A DNA stretch of 35,618 nucleotides, taken from NCBI GenBank assembly GCA_949487135.1, contig CATAJQ010000026.1, forward strand, positions 1-35,618, written 5' to 3'. The stretch comes from Cellvibrionales bacterium UBA7375 (GTDB lineage: Bacteria; Pseudomonadota; Gammaproteobacteria; Pseudomonadales; Porticoccaceae). Both the position numbers and the translations under genes were made by a program. The notes below the pieces were generated by a model. That model was not told the DNA's origin and did not search any database. It saw only the letters and a program-made list of their open reading frames with translations. Of this stretch, positions 30,704 to 35,618 are shown piece by piece. The number at the start of each line of letters is the position of its first letter. Within the stretch, counting starts at the first letter, position 1.

Positions 30704-30790
30704 TGTATATACAAATAATATAATCTTTAAATACTGTATTTGTTGGTTATCTAGCTTATTAAATGTATATACAAATAATATGTATATACA
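30704..30790. promoter_or_regulatory. Three TGTATATACA operators and promoter of the GntR-NYN unit
   Basis: The perfect palindrome TGTATATACA occurs three times, at 30704-30713, 30764-30773 and 30781-30790. The first two copies are part of a longer identical 17-base word TGTATATACAAATAATA; the third shares its first 14 bases. Centres are 60 and 17 bases apart. A perfect TATAAT at 30719-30724 follows the first copy, which would lie in the promoter spacer. The form TGTA-N2-TACA matches what is reported for HutC-type GntR repressors. The adjacent GntR gene is the obvious binder. Confidence 0.8.
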
Positions 30791-30806
30791 AATATGGCTG
30801 GTCTCT

Positions 30807-31532
30807 ATGAATGCTAAAGATCAAAAAATTCCACAATTTGCTGTGATCAAGCAGTATTTAGAGCAGCAAATTAATACTGAGCAGTGGGCGCCGGGTCGGC
30901 GAATCCCCACAGAGCAATCCTTAGCCGATACCTTTGCTGTCAGCAGAATGACCGCCAGGCGAGCCGTGCAGGAATTAGCAGATAAGGGGATTCTCAACAG
31001 AACGCAAGGTTCTGGTACCTATGTTGCCGATAGGCCCGAAACTGTCCCAAATATCCTTATTAAGGATGTTGTTGCTGTGGCAAAAGCAGAAAACACCCAT
31101 CAACATGAAATAATTTCAGCGGATGCGGTGCAGGCAACCTCAGATATTGCCAAATTAATGGGATTGCAAACAGATACACTAATATTTCAGTTAACGATTG
31201 TACATTTCGATGGTGATCGAGCCATACAATGGCAAAAAATTTGGGTAAATAGGAGTATGGCGCCGGCGTTACTTAAACAGAAGCTCGATAAAGTTGACCC
31301 AAATGACTACCTTAACTGGCTGTGTCGACCACAAAAAACGCAGTTTCAGGCAAAAGCAGTGGTGCCAACGGCCAGTCAACGGTTGCAGTTACTGCTATCA
31401 AATCAAGATACGCTCAGTTGTTTTCAATTATCGCGCAGGCAGTGGTCGGCGGATGCAGTATTTAGTTTTTCAGAAATGTTGCATCCGGCGGATAGCTATT
31501 TTTTGGGCGATGACCTAAGGGAAGTTAAGTAA
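30807..31532 (+). CDS. GntR/HutC-family transcriptional regulator with UTRA domain
   Basis: 241 residues from ATG at 30807. An ATG at 30780 would add nine residues, but it starts inside the third operator copy and the extension is encoded by operator sequence, so the downstream ATG is preferred. N-terminal winged HTH about residues 10-80 (PTEQSLADTFAVSRMTARRA, then TQGSGTYVAD). A C-terminal UTRA ligand domain follows (about 95-235), with IWVNRSMAPALL and FSFSEMLHPADSY. UTRA domains bind small effectors such as urocanate, sugars or amino-sugar phosphates; no hut or sugar genes are nearby. Its stop overlaps the NYN gene start as TAATG. Probably represses its own operon through the three palindromes. 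Confidence 0.85.
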   Translation: MNAKDQKIPQFAVIKQYLEQQINTEQWAPGRRIPTEQSLADTFAVSRMTARRAVQELADKGILNRTQGSGTYVADRPETVPNILIKDVVAVAKAENTHQHEIISADAVQATSDIAKLMGLQTDTLIFQLTIVHFDGDRAIQWQKIWVNRSMAPALLKQKLDKVDPNDYLNWLCRPQKTQFQAKAVVPTASQRLQLLLSNQDTLSCFQLSRRQWSADAVFSFSEMLHPADSYFLGDDLREVK

Positions 31533-32017
31533 TGCAAAGAATTGCGCTATTTGTTGATGTACAGAATATCTATTACACCGTTAGGGATAGTTACCAAGGT
31601 TTTTTTAACTATCAGGCACTTTGGCATAAGCTTTCACAGGAATTCACCCTAGTATCAGCAGACGCCTATGCCATTGAAAGCGTTAATGCTAAGCAGCAAA
31701 GCTTTCAGCAAACTCTGAGAAATATCGGCTTTAATGTAAACCTGAAACCCTATATTCAGCGCGCAGATGGCTCTGCCAAGGGTGATTGGGACGTGGGTAT
31801 TGCGATAGATATGATGGACGCTGCCGCTCGGCAAGATATAGATAAGTTGGTGCTATTATCAGGCGATGGTGATTTTGATCGATTATTACAGCGCCTATAT
31901 CGCGGCAATGGAAAAGAAACCCTAGTCTATGGTGTGCCCCAGTTAACGGCGGCATCCTTGGTGAATGCCGCAACAGAGTTTCGTCCTATCGACAAAACCT
32001 TGCTAATGACTAAGTAA
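31532..32017 (+). CDS. NYN-domain protein (LabA/DUF88, putative RNase)
   Basis: 161-residue PIN-like NYN-domain protein, essentially the domain alone. Acidic active-site residues are visible in order: FVDVQNIYY (Asp9, Asn12), KGDWDVGIAIDMMDAA (Asp95/Asp97, Asp102 and nearby) and LLSGDGDFDRLL (about 118-129). This is the pattern of the LabA/YacP-type predicted endonucleases. The Met codon shares a base with the regulator's stop (TAATG), so it is translationally coupled to the GntR gene and controlled by the same operators. Its end overlaps the next, convergent gene by 8 bases. Nuclease activity is inferred from the fold. RNA target unknown. Confidence 0.85.
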   Translation: MQRIALFVDVQNIYYTVRDSYQGFFNYQALWHKLSQEFTLVSADAYAIESVNAKQQSFQQTLRNIGFNVNLKPYIQRADGSAKGDWDVGIAIDMMDAAARQDIDKLVLLSGDGDFDRLLQRLYRGNGKETLVYGVPQLTAASLVNAATEFRPIDKTLLMTK

Positions 32018-32375
32018 TAATACCACCGCCGGGGTTGTTGCCATCTTGCCCTGGAACAACTATTTTCGATGCCTGTTCACGGCGCATACGCTCTAGCTCT
32101 TTGCCTGCCTCTTCAACCGCAATGGCTGCTTTTCCGGCAAAATCTTGAGCTGCTTCACCAATAGTATCGCCATCTAAGGCAAAATTGAGTGGAATAGCGC
32201 CCATAGGCGTCATGACTTGGGCCGAGCCAAAAAATGCTGTGGCACGGTCAGGGTCATCAGAACCATCCGCCAATACGGGGATCAACTTGCGAATAGCACC
32301 GGTTTTTTGGTCGGTATAGTTTTCTTCTTTGAAAAGCTCGTCCGGGCTCATTGCGTTACTGTCTTCGTTACTCAT
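32010..32375 (-). CDS. Conserved-looking hypothetical protein, no recognised family
   Basis: 121 residues; I do not recognise the family. Visible features: an acidic N-terminus (MSNEDSNAMSPDELFKEENY), a central segment with TAFFGSAQVMTPMGAIPLNFAL that looks folded, then a predicted helix (AAQDFAGKAAIAVEEAGKELERMRREQ) and a flexible Gly-rich tail ending GGGIIT. No signal peptide and no membrane segment, so it is probably cytoplasmic. The ATG at 32375 is preceded by weak ribosome-binding sequence only. The 3' end overlaps the NYN gene by 8 bases, tail to tail. Balanced amino-acid use and the absence of competing longer frames favour a real gene. Confidence 0.6.
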   Translation of the reverse strand: MSNEDSNAMSPDELFKEENYTDQKTGAIRKLIPVLADGSDDPDRATAFFGSAQVMTPMGAIPLNFALDGDTIGEAAQDFAGKAAIAVEEAGKELERMRREQASKIVVPGQDGNNPGGGIIT

Positions 32376-32467: not shown

Positions 32468-33661
32468 TTAGCGGCTAATCTTGGCGCTTAAAATGGTGCT
32501 GATAATAACCATAGCAGACGACACCGCTAGGCAGGCAACTAGACCCTGTTGTTGATATATAAGACCCGATAGCAGTGTGCCAGAGAGTCTGCCTGCCGCA
32601 TTGGCCATATAGTAGAAGCCGACATCGGTAGACACAGAGTCACGTTTCGAAAAGGCTACAATTAAAAATGAATGGATACTCGAATTAATGGCAAAAACAA
32701 CGCCGTAGGTGAGCAAGCCTGCAATTAAAATGATTGCGGGGTCTAGCCCATAGATAAGACCAGCTGCAATTAATGCGGGTATAAAGGTTAACTTAGCAAC
32801 CCAAGATGTAAGCTCAGAGCCTGTTGGAGTCTGCTGTTGGTAGTTGCTAGTAATTTTTGGGGCAAGTGCTTGAACCAAGCCATAGCCAATGACCCAACAG
32901 GCCATAAAGCTGCCGACTTGAAGGTGGGTCCATTGTAATTGGCTCTGTAAAAATACCGGCAGGGCAATAACAAACCAAATATCTCTAGAGCCAAACAAAA
33001 AAAAGCGCGCACCAGATAGCAGATTGATATCGCGGCTTTTTGATAGAGACTCACTAAATTTGGGCTTATAGCTGGTTTTTTGCGGCTGTAAAAATAATAG
33101 ACTCAGCACTAATGTAATGGCTAATAATGCCATCAGGGTATGTAGGCTACTGGCAAAGCCAAGTGTTGTCATTAAAAAGCCACCCAGGAAAAACCCCAAG
33201 CCTTTAAGGCTATTTTTTGATCCAGTGAGTAGTGCCACCCAACAATAGAGCTTGGTTTGCTGATTATCAGACAGCAATAGCTTAATACTACTTTTAGCGC
33301 TCATTTTATTAAGATCTTTGGCAATACCAGAAATAGCCTGTGCAATCATCACATACACAAGGCTTAGCATTGAGGGATCAACTGTGAGCATGCCCAATGC
33401 CAGAATTTGTAGAGCTAAGCCTATATGCAGTGAGGTGTTTAGGCCAATACGCGTGGCTAGCCAACCGCCATAGAGATTGGTTAAGATGCCAAAAAATTCA
33501 TAGAGTATAAATAAGCTTGCAAGTTCGATTGGCGAATAGCCCAAGCCATGAAAGAAAAACAGCACTAGCATACGCAGTGCGCCATCAGTCAGGGTAAATG
33601 CCCAGTAACTGAGGGTGATGGTTAGATATTGTTTGGCGGCAGAATTAAGTGCCATAATCAC
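32468..33661 (-). CDS. arsJ: ArsJ organoarsenical (1-arseno-3-phosphoglycerate) efflux MFS transporter
   Basis: Inner-membrane major-facilitator protein of 397 residues, about 11-12 helices. ArsJ exports 1-arseno-3-phosphoglycerate, which falls apart outside the cell to arsenate. Family marks: [18 protein letters not shown] near the N-terminus, [17 protein letters not shown], and the very characteristic [19 protein letters not shown] followed by [13 protein letters not shown]. The GTG at 33661 overlaps the GAPDH stop by 4 bases (GTGA); an ATG at 33655 is the alternative start. The immediate upstream GAPDH supplies the substrate, the known arsenate-resistance pair. No arsR, arsC or arsB is seen nearby. 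Confidence 0.93.
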
Positions 33662-34671
33662 ATGGAAATCGCGACTTTAGAGACCAATTCCATCATACGG
33701 TTTACATAGCCAATTTCGTTGTCATACCAAACTAATAGCTTAACCTGAGTGCCGTTAATCACCATAGTTGAGGGAGCATCGACAACCCCTGATCGAATAT
33801 CATTGGTGTAGTCGACCGATACCAATGGTAATTCTTCATAGCCCAAAATCCCTTTTAGACGACCATTTGCAGCGGTTTGAAGTGCCGCGTTGACTTCTTC
33901 AACCGTGACAGATTTTTCAACCTCAAACACACAATCTGTCAATGAGGCATTAGCCAGTGGAACGCGAACAGCGACACCGTTGATTTTGCCCTTAAGCTCG
34001 GGAAATATTTCGGTAATCGCTGTAGCAGAGCCAGTGCTTGTGGGTATCAGTGACATACTACTAGCGCGAGATCTGCGCAAATCCTTATGATATTGATCAA
34101 TAATACTTTGCGTATTGGTTATATCATGAATCGTGGTCATCGACCCGTGTGAGATACCAAAGCACTGGTGAATAACATCGACAACGGGCGCAATACAATT
34201 GGTAGTACAGGAGGCCGCGGTGACAATATCCTGTCCAGTATATTCATGGTCATTAACACCCATCACCACGTTGAGCACCTGATTGCGAGGGAAGCCTTTA
34301 ATCGGTGCTGAAACCACCACCTTAGTCACTCCCTGATCAAAATAAGGCGATAAGGCCTCAGGGCTTTTAAATGAACCAGTGCAATCAAGAACTAGGTCAA
34401 CTTTGGCGCCGCGCCAGTCGGTATCCGCAATATCCTTGTTTTGCGAGTAACTAATTTTATGGTTATCAATGATTAGATGATCATCTTCGACAGAAACTAG
34501 TTTATCCCACTGACCATGAACAGAATCAAAGCGCAGCAAATGTGCTGCACTTTGGGCATCGCCCGCCATCTCATTGATATGCACAATGTCAAAATCGGCA
34601 CATCCCCAAGATTTTCGAAGTGCGAGTCGACCCATGCGGCCAAACCCATTGATTGCAACTTTGATCGACAT
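33658..34671 (-). CDS. gap: Glyceraldehyde-3-phosphate dehydrogenase, ArsJ-associated type
   Basis: 337 residues. In the arsJ partnership this enzyme uses arsenate in place of phosphate and makes 1-arseno-3-phosphoglycerate. NAD-binding start [18 protein letters not shown]. Active-site Cys155 in AASCTTNC and His182 in THD (the usual HAYTNDQ reads HDITNTQ). The phosphate-site block STGSATAI and the C-terminal [13 protein letters not shown] are intact, so it should be catalytic. Overlap with arsJ by 4 bases indicates a dedicated operon copy rather than the housekeeping GAPDH, which probably lies elsewhere. The 68-base gap upstream to slyD contains a Pho box, so this promoter is internal and phosphate-controlled by inference. 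Confidence 0.93.
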
Positions 34672-34714
34672 AATATTTCTTAAGATAACAAAATAAGCAA
34701 ATTAATCGCAAAAG

Positions 34715-34732
34715 ATGACATTTTTATGACAG
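34715..34732 (-). promoter_or_regulatory. PhoB box (Pho box) of the gap-arsJ operon
   Basis: Read on the minus strand the site is CTGTCATAAAAATGTCAT. Against the enterobacterial consensus CTGTCATAWAWCTGTCAY it matches 17 of 18 positions, missing only the C at position 12. The two TGTCAT half-sites lie 11 bases apart. Exactly 10 bases downstream is TAATTT (34704-34699), a usable -10 at the spacing typical for PhoB-activated promoters. It starts 7 bases beyond the slyD stop. Confidence 0.8.
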
Positions 34733-34739
34733 TCTCGAT

Positions 34740-35225
34740 TTATTGCTCTTCAGCTTCTAGATTATGCAGATGCCCGCGAGCTATCTCTTCTTCTGAGGCT
34801 TCACGCACTGCTTCAATAGTGACATCAAAATTTAGGTTTTTACCTGCTAGGGGGTGGTTGCCATCAACAGTAACATGTTCATCTGTTAGCGCAACCACAG
34901 TCACTGGCACAGTGCCGCCCTGACCGGTTTGAGCTTCAAATTGCATACCTAGCTCGATAGTATCTATACCTTGAAATGCTTCGCGCGGTACTTCTTGAAT
35001 AAGCTCTTTCTGAACTTCGCCATAACCCTCACCCGCACTTACAGCAACGGTGAGTGAATCACCGATGGTTTTGCCTTCTAGGGCTTTTTCTAAGCCGGGA
35101 ATAATATTTCCTGCACCGTGTAAGTAATCAAGGGGCTCTTGGCCCTCTGAGCTATCAATGCTGATGCCGTCATCATCGGTCAGTTTATAGTGGAAGCTAA
35201 CCGCACTGTTGTTCTGAATATTCAT
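34740..35225 (-). CDS. slyD: FKBP-type peptidyl-prolyl isomerase, SlyD-like without His-rich tail
   Basis: 161 residues. FKBP domain split by the insert-in-flap (IF) domain: SFHYKLTDDDGISIDSSEG, then LDYLHGAGNIIPGLEKALEGK (the DYLHG block is specific to SlyD), the IF segment about 70-125, and VDGNHPLAGKNLNFDVTI, with its NHPLAG block. The usual Cys/His-rich nickel-binding tail of enterobacterial SlyD is missing; only RGHLHN remains near the end. So prolyl isomerase and chaperone activity is likely, but nickel delivery less so. It is upstream of gap-arsJ on the same strand with 68 bases between, and divergent from phoB. Confidence 0.9.
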   Translation of the reverse strand: MNIQNNSAVSFHYKLTDDDGISIDSSEGQEPLDYLHGAGNIIPGLEKALEGKTIGDSLTVAVSAGEGYGEVQKELIQEVPREAFQGIDTIELGMQFEAQTGQGGTVPVTVVALTDEHVTVDGNHPLAGKNLNFDVTIEAVREASEEEIARGHLHNLEAEEQ

Positions 35226-35332: not shown

Positions 35333-35350
35333 TAGTCATAATTATGTCAT
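35333..35350 (+). promoter_or_regulatory. Pho box upstream of phoB
   Basis: TAGTCATAATTATGTCAT matches the Pho box consensus at about 14 of 18 positions, with two TCAT half-sites 11 bases apart. TTTAAT (35361-35366) or TAATAT (35363-35368) stands 10-12 bases downstream as the -10. This fits the known autoregulation of phoB. Confidence 0.65.
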
Positions 35351-35400
35351 AAAGAGGATTTTTAATATGATGGCAGAAAGTGGAAAAAGAGATTGAGTTT

Positions 35401-35618
35401 ATGCCCAAACATACTGTCCTTGTGGTTGATGACGAATCAGCGATTCGAGAAATGCTGAGTATCTCTCTCGATGCTGCTGACTTCAATGTACTGCAGGCAT
35501 CAAATGCGCAGCAGGCTCACGCAATTATAGTAGACCGTCACCCCGATCTAGTGCTTCTAGATTGGATGATGCCGGGCACCTCGGGCCTAGAATTATTACG
35601 TCGGCTTAAACGCGATGA
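35401..35618 (+). CDS. phoB: Phosphate regulon response regulator PhoB (partial, start only)
   Basis: First 72 codons of an OmpR-family regulator, running off the window end. Receiver domain: acidic pair Asp10/Asp11 (VLVVDDESAIREML), phospho-acceptor Asp54 in DLVLLDWMMPGTSGLELL. The LLDW-PG-SG-LLRRLKR pattern is diagnostic for PhoB rather than OmpR or other regulators. The winged-helix DNA-binding domain is outside the window, as is presumably phoR. Start chosen at ATG 35401, with AGAG about 10-15 bases ahead; a short 9-codon frame (35367-35396) lies in the leader. Divergent from slyD. Confidence 0.9.
   Translation, partial: MPKHTVLVVDDESAIREMLSISLDAADFNVLQASNAQQAHAIIVDRHPDLVLLDWMMPGTSGLELLRRLKRD

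Follow-up and report, generated by a model that had tools for sequence, protein, structure and literature searches.

Genes and regulatory features at the contig end

The window, i.e., the whole stretch of 35,618 nucleotides analyzed here, is one complete contig (G000:C26) of the 1.44-Mb draft genome G000 (92% complete), the genus of which probably consists of SAR92-like marine bacteria. The following features are located near the end of this contig:

32468..33655, minus strand: arsJ, MFS organoarsenical/arsenate efflux permease (NF033734, 561 bits, cut-off 400)
33658..34671, minus strand: gap, ArsJ-associated glyceraldehyde-3-phosphate dehydrogenase (NF033735, 537 bits, cut-off 450)
34699..34704, minus strand: -10-like hexamer TAATTT, 10 nt downstream of the Pho box, 3/6 to TATAAT
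34715..34732, minus strand: Pho box CTGTCATAAAAATGTCAT, a direct repeat oriented towards gap and located 61 nt upstream of its ATG
34740..35225, minus strand: slyD-like FKBP peptidyl-prolyl isomerase (PF00254; NF008008, 170.4 bits, slightly below the cut-off of 174)
35333..35350, plus strand: phoB's own Pho box TAGTCATAATTATGTCAT (14/18), 68 nt before the phoB ATG
35401..35618, plus strand: phoB, N-terminal 72 codons, truncated by the contig end (TIGR02154 best family, E 1.8e-24 over 72 aa)

The ArsJ-family permease of the MFS type and its dedicated ArsJ-associated GAPDH are encoded by adjacent ORFs, and the pair is assigned as an arsenate efflux module by family membership, both proteins scoring above the curated cut-offs. 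The genes slyD and gap are positioned on the same strand and are 68 bases apart (34672-34739). The start of phoB at 35401, which runs off the contig end, was overlooked in the preliminary description of this DNA. Genes for a HutC-like GntR regulator, an NYN-domain protein and a protein of 121 aa that matches no Pfam or NCBIfam family (window positions 30780-32375) adjoin arsJ at most loci of the genus, and these three still adjoin slyD in slots that lack gap-arsJ.

The C-terminal part of a phoB is found on a separate contig of the same draft genome (G000:C4:8677-9255). This contig (L239) also carries phoR, a porin gene, genes for a PstS-like binding protein, for PstC (over cut-off) and for a second permease, phoU, and an ATP-binding ORF that was read by eye as pstB; two Pho-like sites, offset by 11 bases, precede pstS there. 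An E. coli-type DNA-binding domain is present in the PhoB protein of G000, as this part of the protein matches E. coli PhoB (1gxp) at 9e-40 and possesses the identical RTVDVHIRRLRKA stretch. In the related genome G005, phoB is followed by phoR-like and pstS-like ORFs and stands beside slyD-gap-arsJ, a gene order that places gap-arsJ by synteny at the edge of a phosphate island. The order phoB/slyD/gap/arsJ is conserved in the genus: phoB is seen at 33 of the 38 gap-arsJ loci, and slyD stands beside gap at 36 of them.

The Pho box before gap and its recurrence in the genus

The E. coli Pho-box consensus is CTGTCATAWAWCTGTCAY, from which CTGTCATAAAAATGTCAT departs at a single position out of 18 (C>A at position 12). 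The site consists of two 7-bp direct repeats, CTGTCAT and ATGTCAT, separated by a 4-bp AT-rich spacer (AAAA), and it occupies the position of a -35 contact, 10 nt before the -10-like TAATTT. The preliminary description had reported a 17-of-18 Pho-box match in a 68-base interval between slyD and gap, with TAATTT exactly 10 bases downstream, and each of these statements is borne out by the positions listed above, although the hexamer agrees with TATAAT at only half of its bases. The promoter of phoB shares this layout in G000, since its Pho box is followed after 10 nt by TTTAAT (35361-35366); this box is weaker than that of gap (14/18 vs 17/18).

Across the entire 1.44-Mb genome G000, the gap box is the only site with at most one mismatch to the consensus; chance expectations computed from the base composition of the window are 0.026 such sites on both strands of the genome and about 5e-7 in the 68-nt spacer in the sense of gap. 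When up to three mismatches are allowed, G000 contains 10 sites, in comparison with 6 for a reversed-pattern control. Two further sites have two mismatches; one of these (C4:731) is positioned just downstream of phoU within the Pho island, and the other (C47:50742) is probably a chance occurrence because it lies inside a coding ORF.

The genus provides a yardstick of its own for PhoB sites. In 33 of 33 phoB promoters, the best Pho-like box (13 to 17 of 18) is located 67-70 nt before the ATG, and in all 33 the hexamer 10 nt downstream agrees with TATAAT in at least four of six positions (mean 4.45). A weight matrix trained solely on these 33 phoB boxes was used to score the 130 bases upstream of gap at the 37 genus loci in which gap is present, G034 being left out of the gap counts as its contig ends inside arsJ; the control consisted of 14726 windows taken from the arsJ flank of these loci, which avoids real phoB and pst boxes, together with shuffles. 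The gap box of G000 attains a score of 19.2 and thereby exceeds every one of the 14726 control windows and 7400 shuffles. Conservation in relatives, which the preliminary description had named as a check of its proposal, turned out to be broad and incomplete: a Pho box precedes gap at p<0.05 in 24 of the 37 loci (p<0.01 in 23, p<0.001 in 16), it is marginal in G015 (p 0.06), and it is missing from 12 loci even though PhoB is present in these genomes. Of the 24 gap boxes, 10 agree with the E. coli consensus at 15-18 of 18 positions, and the remaining 14, at 11-13 of 18, rest on the clade-specific matrix. The stretch of G058 ends inside gap, and its upstream region displays, by eye, the same strong box as G011.

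The gap boxes were chosen without use of the hexamer, and the spacing between the two elements can hence be assessed separately. Among the 24 gap promoters, agreement of the hexamer is best at +10 (mean 3.83/6, with at least 4/6 in 17 of 24), while the other offsets tested give means of 0.75-2.67, except for 3.12 at offset 7. The shuffle mean at +10 is 2.05, and none of 5000 shuffles reaches 3.83; the same outcome is obtained with the 17 loci that remain after thinning close relatives. Taken together, the rarity of the site, the matrix controls and the -10 spacing statistics argue strongly against a chance match as the origin of the gap Pho box. Sites with at most two mismatches number 111 in the 50 genus genomes vs 44 for the reversed control, and there are seven zero-mismatch Pho boxes in these genomes, four of which are gap promoters (G005, G009, G013, G064).

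Arsenic regulators and the history of the module

The G000 locus has no arsR in or beside the operon, where an ArsR-controlled ars operon would carry one, and the earlier statement that arsR is missing nearby holds for the whole window. An ArsR-type ORF near gap-arsJ was found at none of the 38 genus loci, in stretches of differing length, some of which extend only a short way on one side (e.g., G005, G009, G015, G034). Outside the genus, such an ORF accompanies 85 of 102 gap-arsJ loci once duplicates are removed (raw count outside the genus list, 91 of 120); 11 named loci, four in the genus and seven in the family, were dropped as duplicates of loci carrying G handles. A box score of at least 6 is reached by none of the 85 ArsR-positive and one of the 17 ArsR-negative loci outside the genus, and by 20 of the 37 genus loci (Fisher 1.3e-10, kinship ignored); four more loci without a gap match above 50% identity and three with fewer than 100 bases upstream were set aside in this comparison. 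The single high-scoring locus outside the genus stems from Marinobacter sp. F4216 (L112), in which a Pho-box-like TTGTCAGGTTTCTGTCAC is located 90 nt upstream of gap, the examined stretch of this gap-arsJ locus having no ArsR; judged from its sequence, it is a possible independent case of a gap-arsJ pair with a Pho box.

The distance from slyD to gap, taken between match ends, is 489-741 bases at 21 of 36 genus loci. An arsR hidden in these long spacers was rejected, as none of them contains an ArsR-type ORF of at least 60 aa. At least several of them, in larger-genome members (e.g., L044, L051, L053), instead contain a short ORF of about 60-75 aa that is divergent and resembles a small membrane protein.

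An HTH_5 scan took in 40 genomes, 29 of them among the 50 of the genus, with G063 and G064 outside it. In G000 it returned one match over cut-off, in a 347-aa ArsR-methyltransferase ORF, and no short ArsR-type ORF; an arsR elsewhere in this genome was rejected, the only other match being a sub-cut-off one in a 333-aa frame. The 347-aa ORF (G000:C35; L241:1230-2273) fuses an ArsR-type HTH to a SAM-methyltransferase domain and stands directly before a metK-like ORF, and many genomes of the genus have HTH_5 matches in frames of about this length. Five genomes of the small-genome lineage were scanned, and none of them contained a short ArsR-type ORF over cut-off. Neither an Acr3 nor an ArsB match was found in G000 as an alternative arsenic exporter; an ArsC-family reductase over the TIGR00014 cut-off is encoded at G000:C15:69096-69431, in this genome without an ArsB or Acr3 match.

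The 12 box-less loci (G001, G002, G022, G025, G029, G031, G056, G057, G061, G062, G065, G069) belong to genomes that all possess PhoB and PstC over cut-off, yet have no arsR near gap-arsJ. Hence, PhoB wiring is not universal, and the module does not depend on it; the presence of PhoB in these 12 genomes limits the reach of such wiring across the genus and has no bearing on the G000 site itself. A 15-base element, ATGCAAAATACTGTG, is positioned 84-111 nt before gap in 9 of the 12 (e.g., L064, L202, L201), with one variant base in G056, and it also occurs at -82 in G015. It may serve as a promoter or operator in place of the Pho box. Some box-bearing species seem, on inspection by eye, to have shorter relatives of it.

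A Gap plus ArsJ tree was built by a quick method with SH-aLRT only, from the 75 rows with G handles out of 127 prepared. The 37 rows of the genus group together in a single clade (99% SH-aLRT), the box is found in every main genus subclade, and the box-less rows comprise one clade of nine and three rows within another. The simplest reading, made by eye on grounds of parsimony, is that PhoB control was acquired once in an ancestor, arsR being lost with it, and that the box disappeared later. In G030, G023, G014 and G026 (the latter at a contig start), the slot from slyD to the next conserved gene has no gap-arsJ, and in the slot of G027 gap is present and arsJ absent.

Among genus genomes with an over-cut-off PhoB, 34 of 36 encode ArsJ; among those lacking one, 4 of 14 do (G015, G024, G034, G063). 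For PstC, the corresponding counts are 34 of 38 and 4 of 12. Fisher tests on all 50 genomes (PhoB 5e-6, PstC 3e-4) ignore kinship, and co-absence is inflated by incomplete drafts; restricted to the 35 genomes whose completeness is at least 85, both give 0.003. Within the genus, absence of arsJ thus tends to coincide with absence of phoB and pst, but since the genomes are mostly drafts, as G000 is, gene absences are provisional. Two genomes, G063 (L205) and G024 (L068), have kept gap-arsJ and retain phoB as a start stub beside slyD; neither draft gave a PhoB match (E<=1e-40) or a PstC match (E<=1e-10), and in G024 the stub is followed by PhoR-end-like sequence. The box of G063 is degraded (15/18, matrix score 4.0, in comparison with about 19 for its sisters G000, G013 and G064). 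Because G024 keeps a moderate box (8.1) despite its lack of a PhoB match, this natural experiment is suggestive only.

Proposed phosphate control of arsenate export and its rivals

The recurrence of the box, the same 10-nt spacing of its hexamer, the lack of arsR in the stretches examined at all 38 genus loci and the adjoining phoB support, at the level of sequence, the proposal of the preliminary description that gap-arsJ is under PhoB control. With the usual arsenic sensor missing, phoB next door and a box in most members, gap-arsJ is therefore probably switched on by phosphate hunger, the condition in which mistaken uptake of arsenate is most likely. For G000, we regard it as very probable that PhoB activates gap-arsJ, i.e., that the pair belongs to the Pho regulon.

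Arsenate competes with phosphate for uptake by the same importers, and phosphate concentrations in surface seawater are often low. Under phosphate scarcity, PhoR would phosphorylate PhoB, and PhoB-P would bind the gap box and recruit sigma-70 RNA polymerase, in keeping with the binding of PhoB-P to Pho-type repeats and its recruitment of sigma-70 polymerase given in PMC4563254. Gap and ArsJ would then be made alongside the Pst importer, uptake through which would admit some arsenate; phosphate transporters are the route of arsenate entry according to PMC5930303. Gap would form 1-arseno-3-phosphoglycerate, and ArsJ would export arsenate, free or as the ester, a point that is disputed (PMC5930303, PMC9601151). 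Phosphate hunger would in this way act as a proxy signal for arsenate entry and take the place of an arsenic sensor.

Control by PhoB does not have to be the only input. A compatible possibility, though one that we consider rather unlikely, is dual control, in which PhoB acts together with an unlinked ArsR-type or other arsenic sensor, or with read-through from slyD, so that arsenate or basal transcription would continue to play a part. Short HTH_5 ORFs do occur elsewhere in several larger genomes of the genus (e.g., G025, G002, G011, G018), and the Nodularia gap-arsJ cluster rises under phosphate limitation while retaining arsR (PMC9846622). However, neither of the two HTH_5 matches of G000 is a short ArsR-type ORF, and the over-cut-off matches of G005, G009, G013 and G034 are situated in frames of 343-369 aa. 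Read-through from slyD may add phosphate-independent expression, since the slyD-gap interval revealed no terminator and slyD itself is preceded by a promoter-like pair; just ahead of gap, no sigma-70-type pair was found on the gap strand. In the small-genome lineage, anticipatory control may be the sole control, given that none of its five scanned genomes contains a short ArsR-type ORF over cut-off.

That the module became constitutive after arsR was lost, with a plain sigma-70 ancestral promoter to which the Pho box is a local add-on, could draw on ATGCAAAATACTGTG as a putative promoter common to most box-less loci, but the box is present in all main subclades, for which reason its loss in some lineages is the simpler reading (parsimony by eye); we hold this scenario to be improbable. 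The box might also be a by-product of its neighborhood, a chance site or stray promoter near phoB that is irrelevant to gap-arsJ. The box-less loci in PhoB-containing genomes fit this, as does the fact that one of the three G000 sites with at most two mismatches lies inside a coding ORF. Against it stand the sense orientation of the box, its promoter spacing, its recurrence across subclades while the flanking bases diverge, matrix and shuffle scores far above chance, and the strong boxes in five of the six readable members of the small-genome lineage despite slyD-gap spacers of only about 70-110 bases. We therefore deem such a by-product highly improbable, and control by PhoB remains the reading that we favor.

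In P. aeruginosa, the arsR-gap-arsJ operon is under ArsR control. Such an operon is attributed to P. aeruginosa DK2 (as cited in PMC5930303), and the V. cholerae var operon has, according to PMC9601151, a single arsenate-dependent promoter upstream of arsR that becomes constitutive when arsR is inactivated. The G000 locus has the same Gap and ArsJ families (NF033735, NF033734), and presumably the same chemistry, but differs from both operons in having a Pho box and no arsR nearby. A Pho box on an arsenic gene has a precedent in Halomonas sp. HAL1, where PhoBR controls the arsenite oxidase genes aioBA, with PhoB binding demonstrated by EMSA and one-hybrid assays (PMC4563254). Unlike gap-arsJ of G000, aioBA serves arsenite oxidation and is induced by As(III), and its box is weaker (56% to the E. 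coli consensus) and placed on the antisense strand, as described in the same paper. PMC3834237 describes arsenic islands that include pst and phn operons, together with a part played by PhoB1/PhoB2 in the transcription of aioBA.

A link between gap-arsJ and phosphate is also apparent in Nodularia spumigena, whose cluster arsR-sphX-gap-arsJ joins the pair to a gene for a phosphate-binding protein (PMC9846622, PMC3610870). The three columns given for phosphate limitation in PMC9846622 contain log2 values of 1.57, 2.41 and 0.09 for gap and of 0.29, 1.20 and -0.25 for arsJ; gap is thus raised in two of the three columns and arsJ in one of them, similar to our reading of G000, and most arsenate-related genes are described there as lacking a pronounced change. 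This cluster differs from the G000 locus in retaining arsR, and its authors found no conserved P-box in this organism (PMC9846622). In Halomonas GFAJ-1, the island mfs1-mfs2-gapdh likewise places ArsJ-type arsenate efflux near the pst operon, but it also has acr3 and arsH, and the main text of PMC5930303 never mentions PhoB. In phosphate-starved marine plankton, the gene for the low-molecular-weight ArsC of SAR11, which serves arsenate detoxification, is reported to be up 2.3-fold (PMC6426599); its product is a reductase, in contrast to the products of gap-arsJ, and the passage on it discusses no Pho box.

No published report of PhoB control of gap-arsJ was found in the open-licence literature. 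Since the parts that connect PhoB with arsenic, and the idea itself, have already been published, gap-arsJ without arsR, linked to phoB and furnished with a Pho box, appears to be a new variant, i.e., a new wiring of known parts. We lean toward the broader view that the ancestor of the genus swapped the input of its arsenate export: arsR would have been lost and gap-arsJ would have entered the phoBR-pst island under PhoB, so that arsenic defense follows phosphate hunger and the module tends to go missing together with phoB and pst.

If this is true, the replacement of an arsenic sensor by PhoB would provide a clear example of anticipatory regulation in nature, and the expression of arsenate efflux genes in such plankton would report phosphate stress and not arsenic. 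The occurrence of box-bearing and box-less species within one and the same genus makes the PhoB wiring directly testable.
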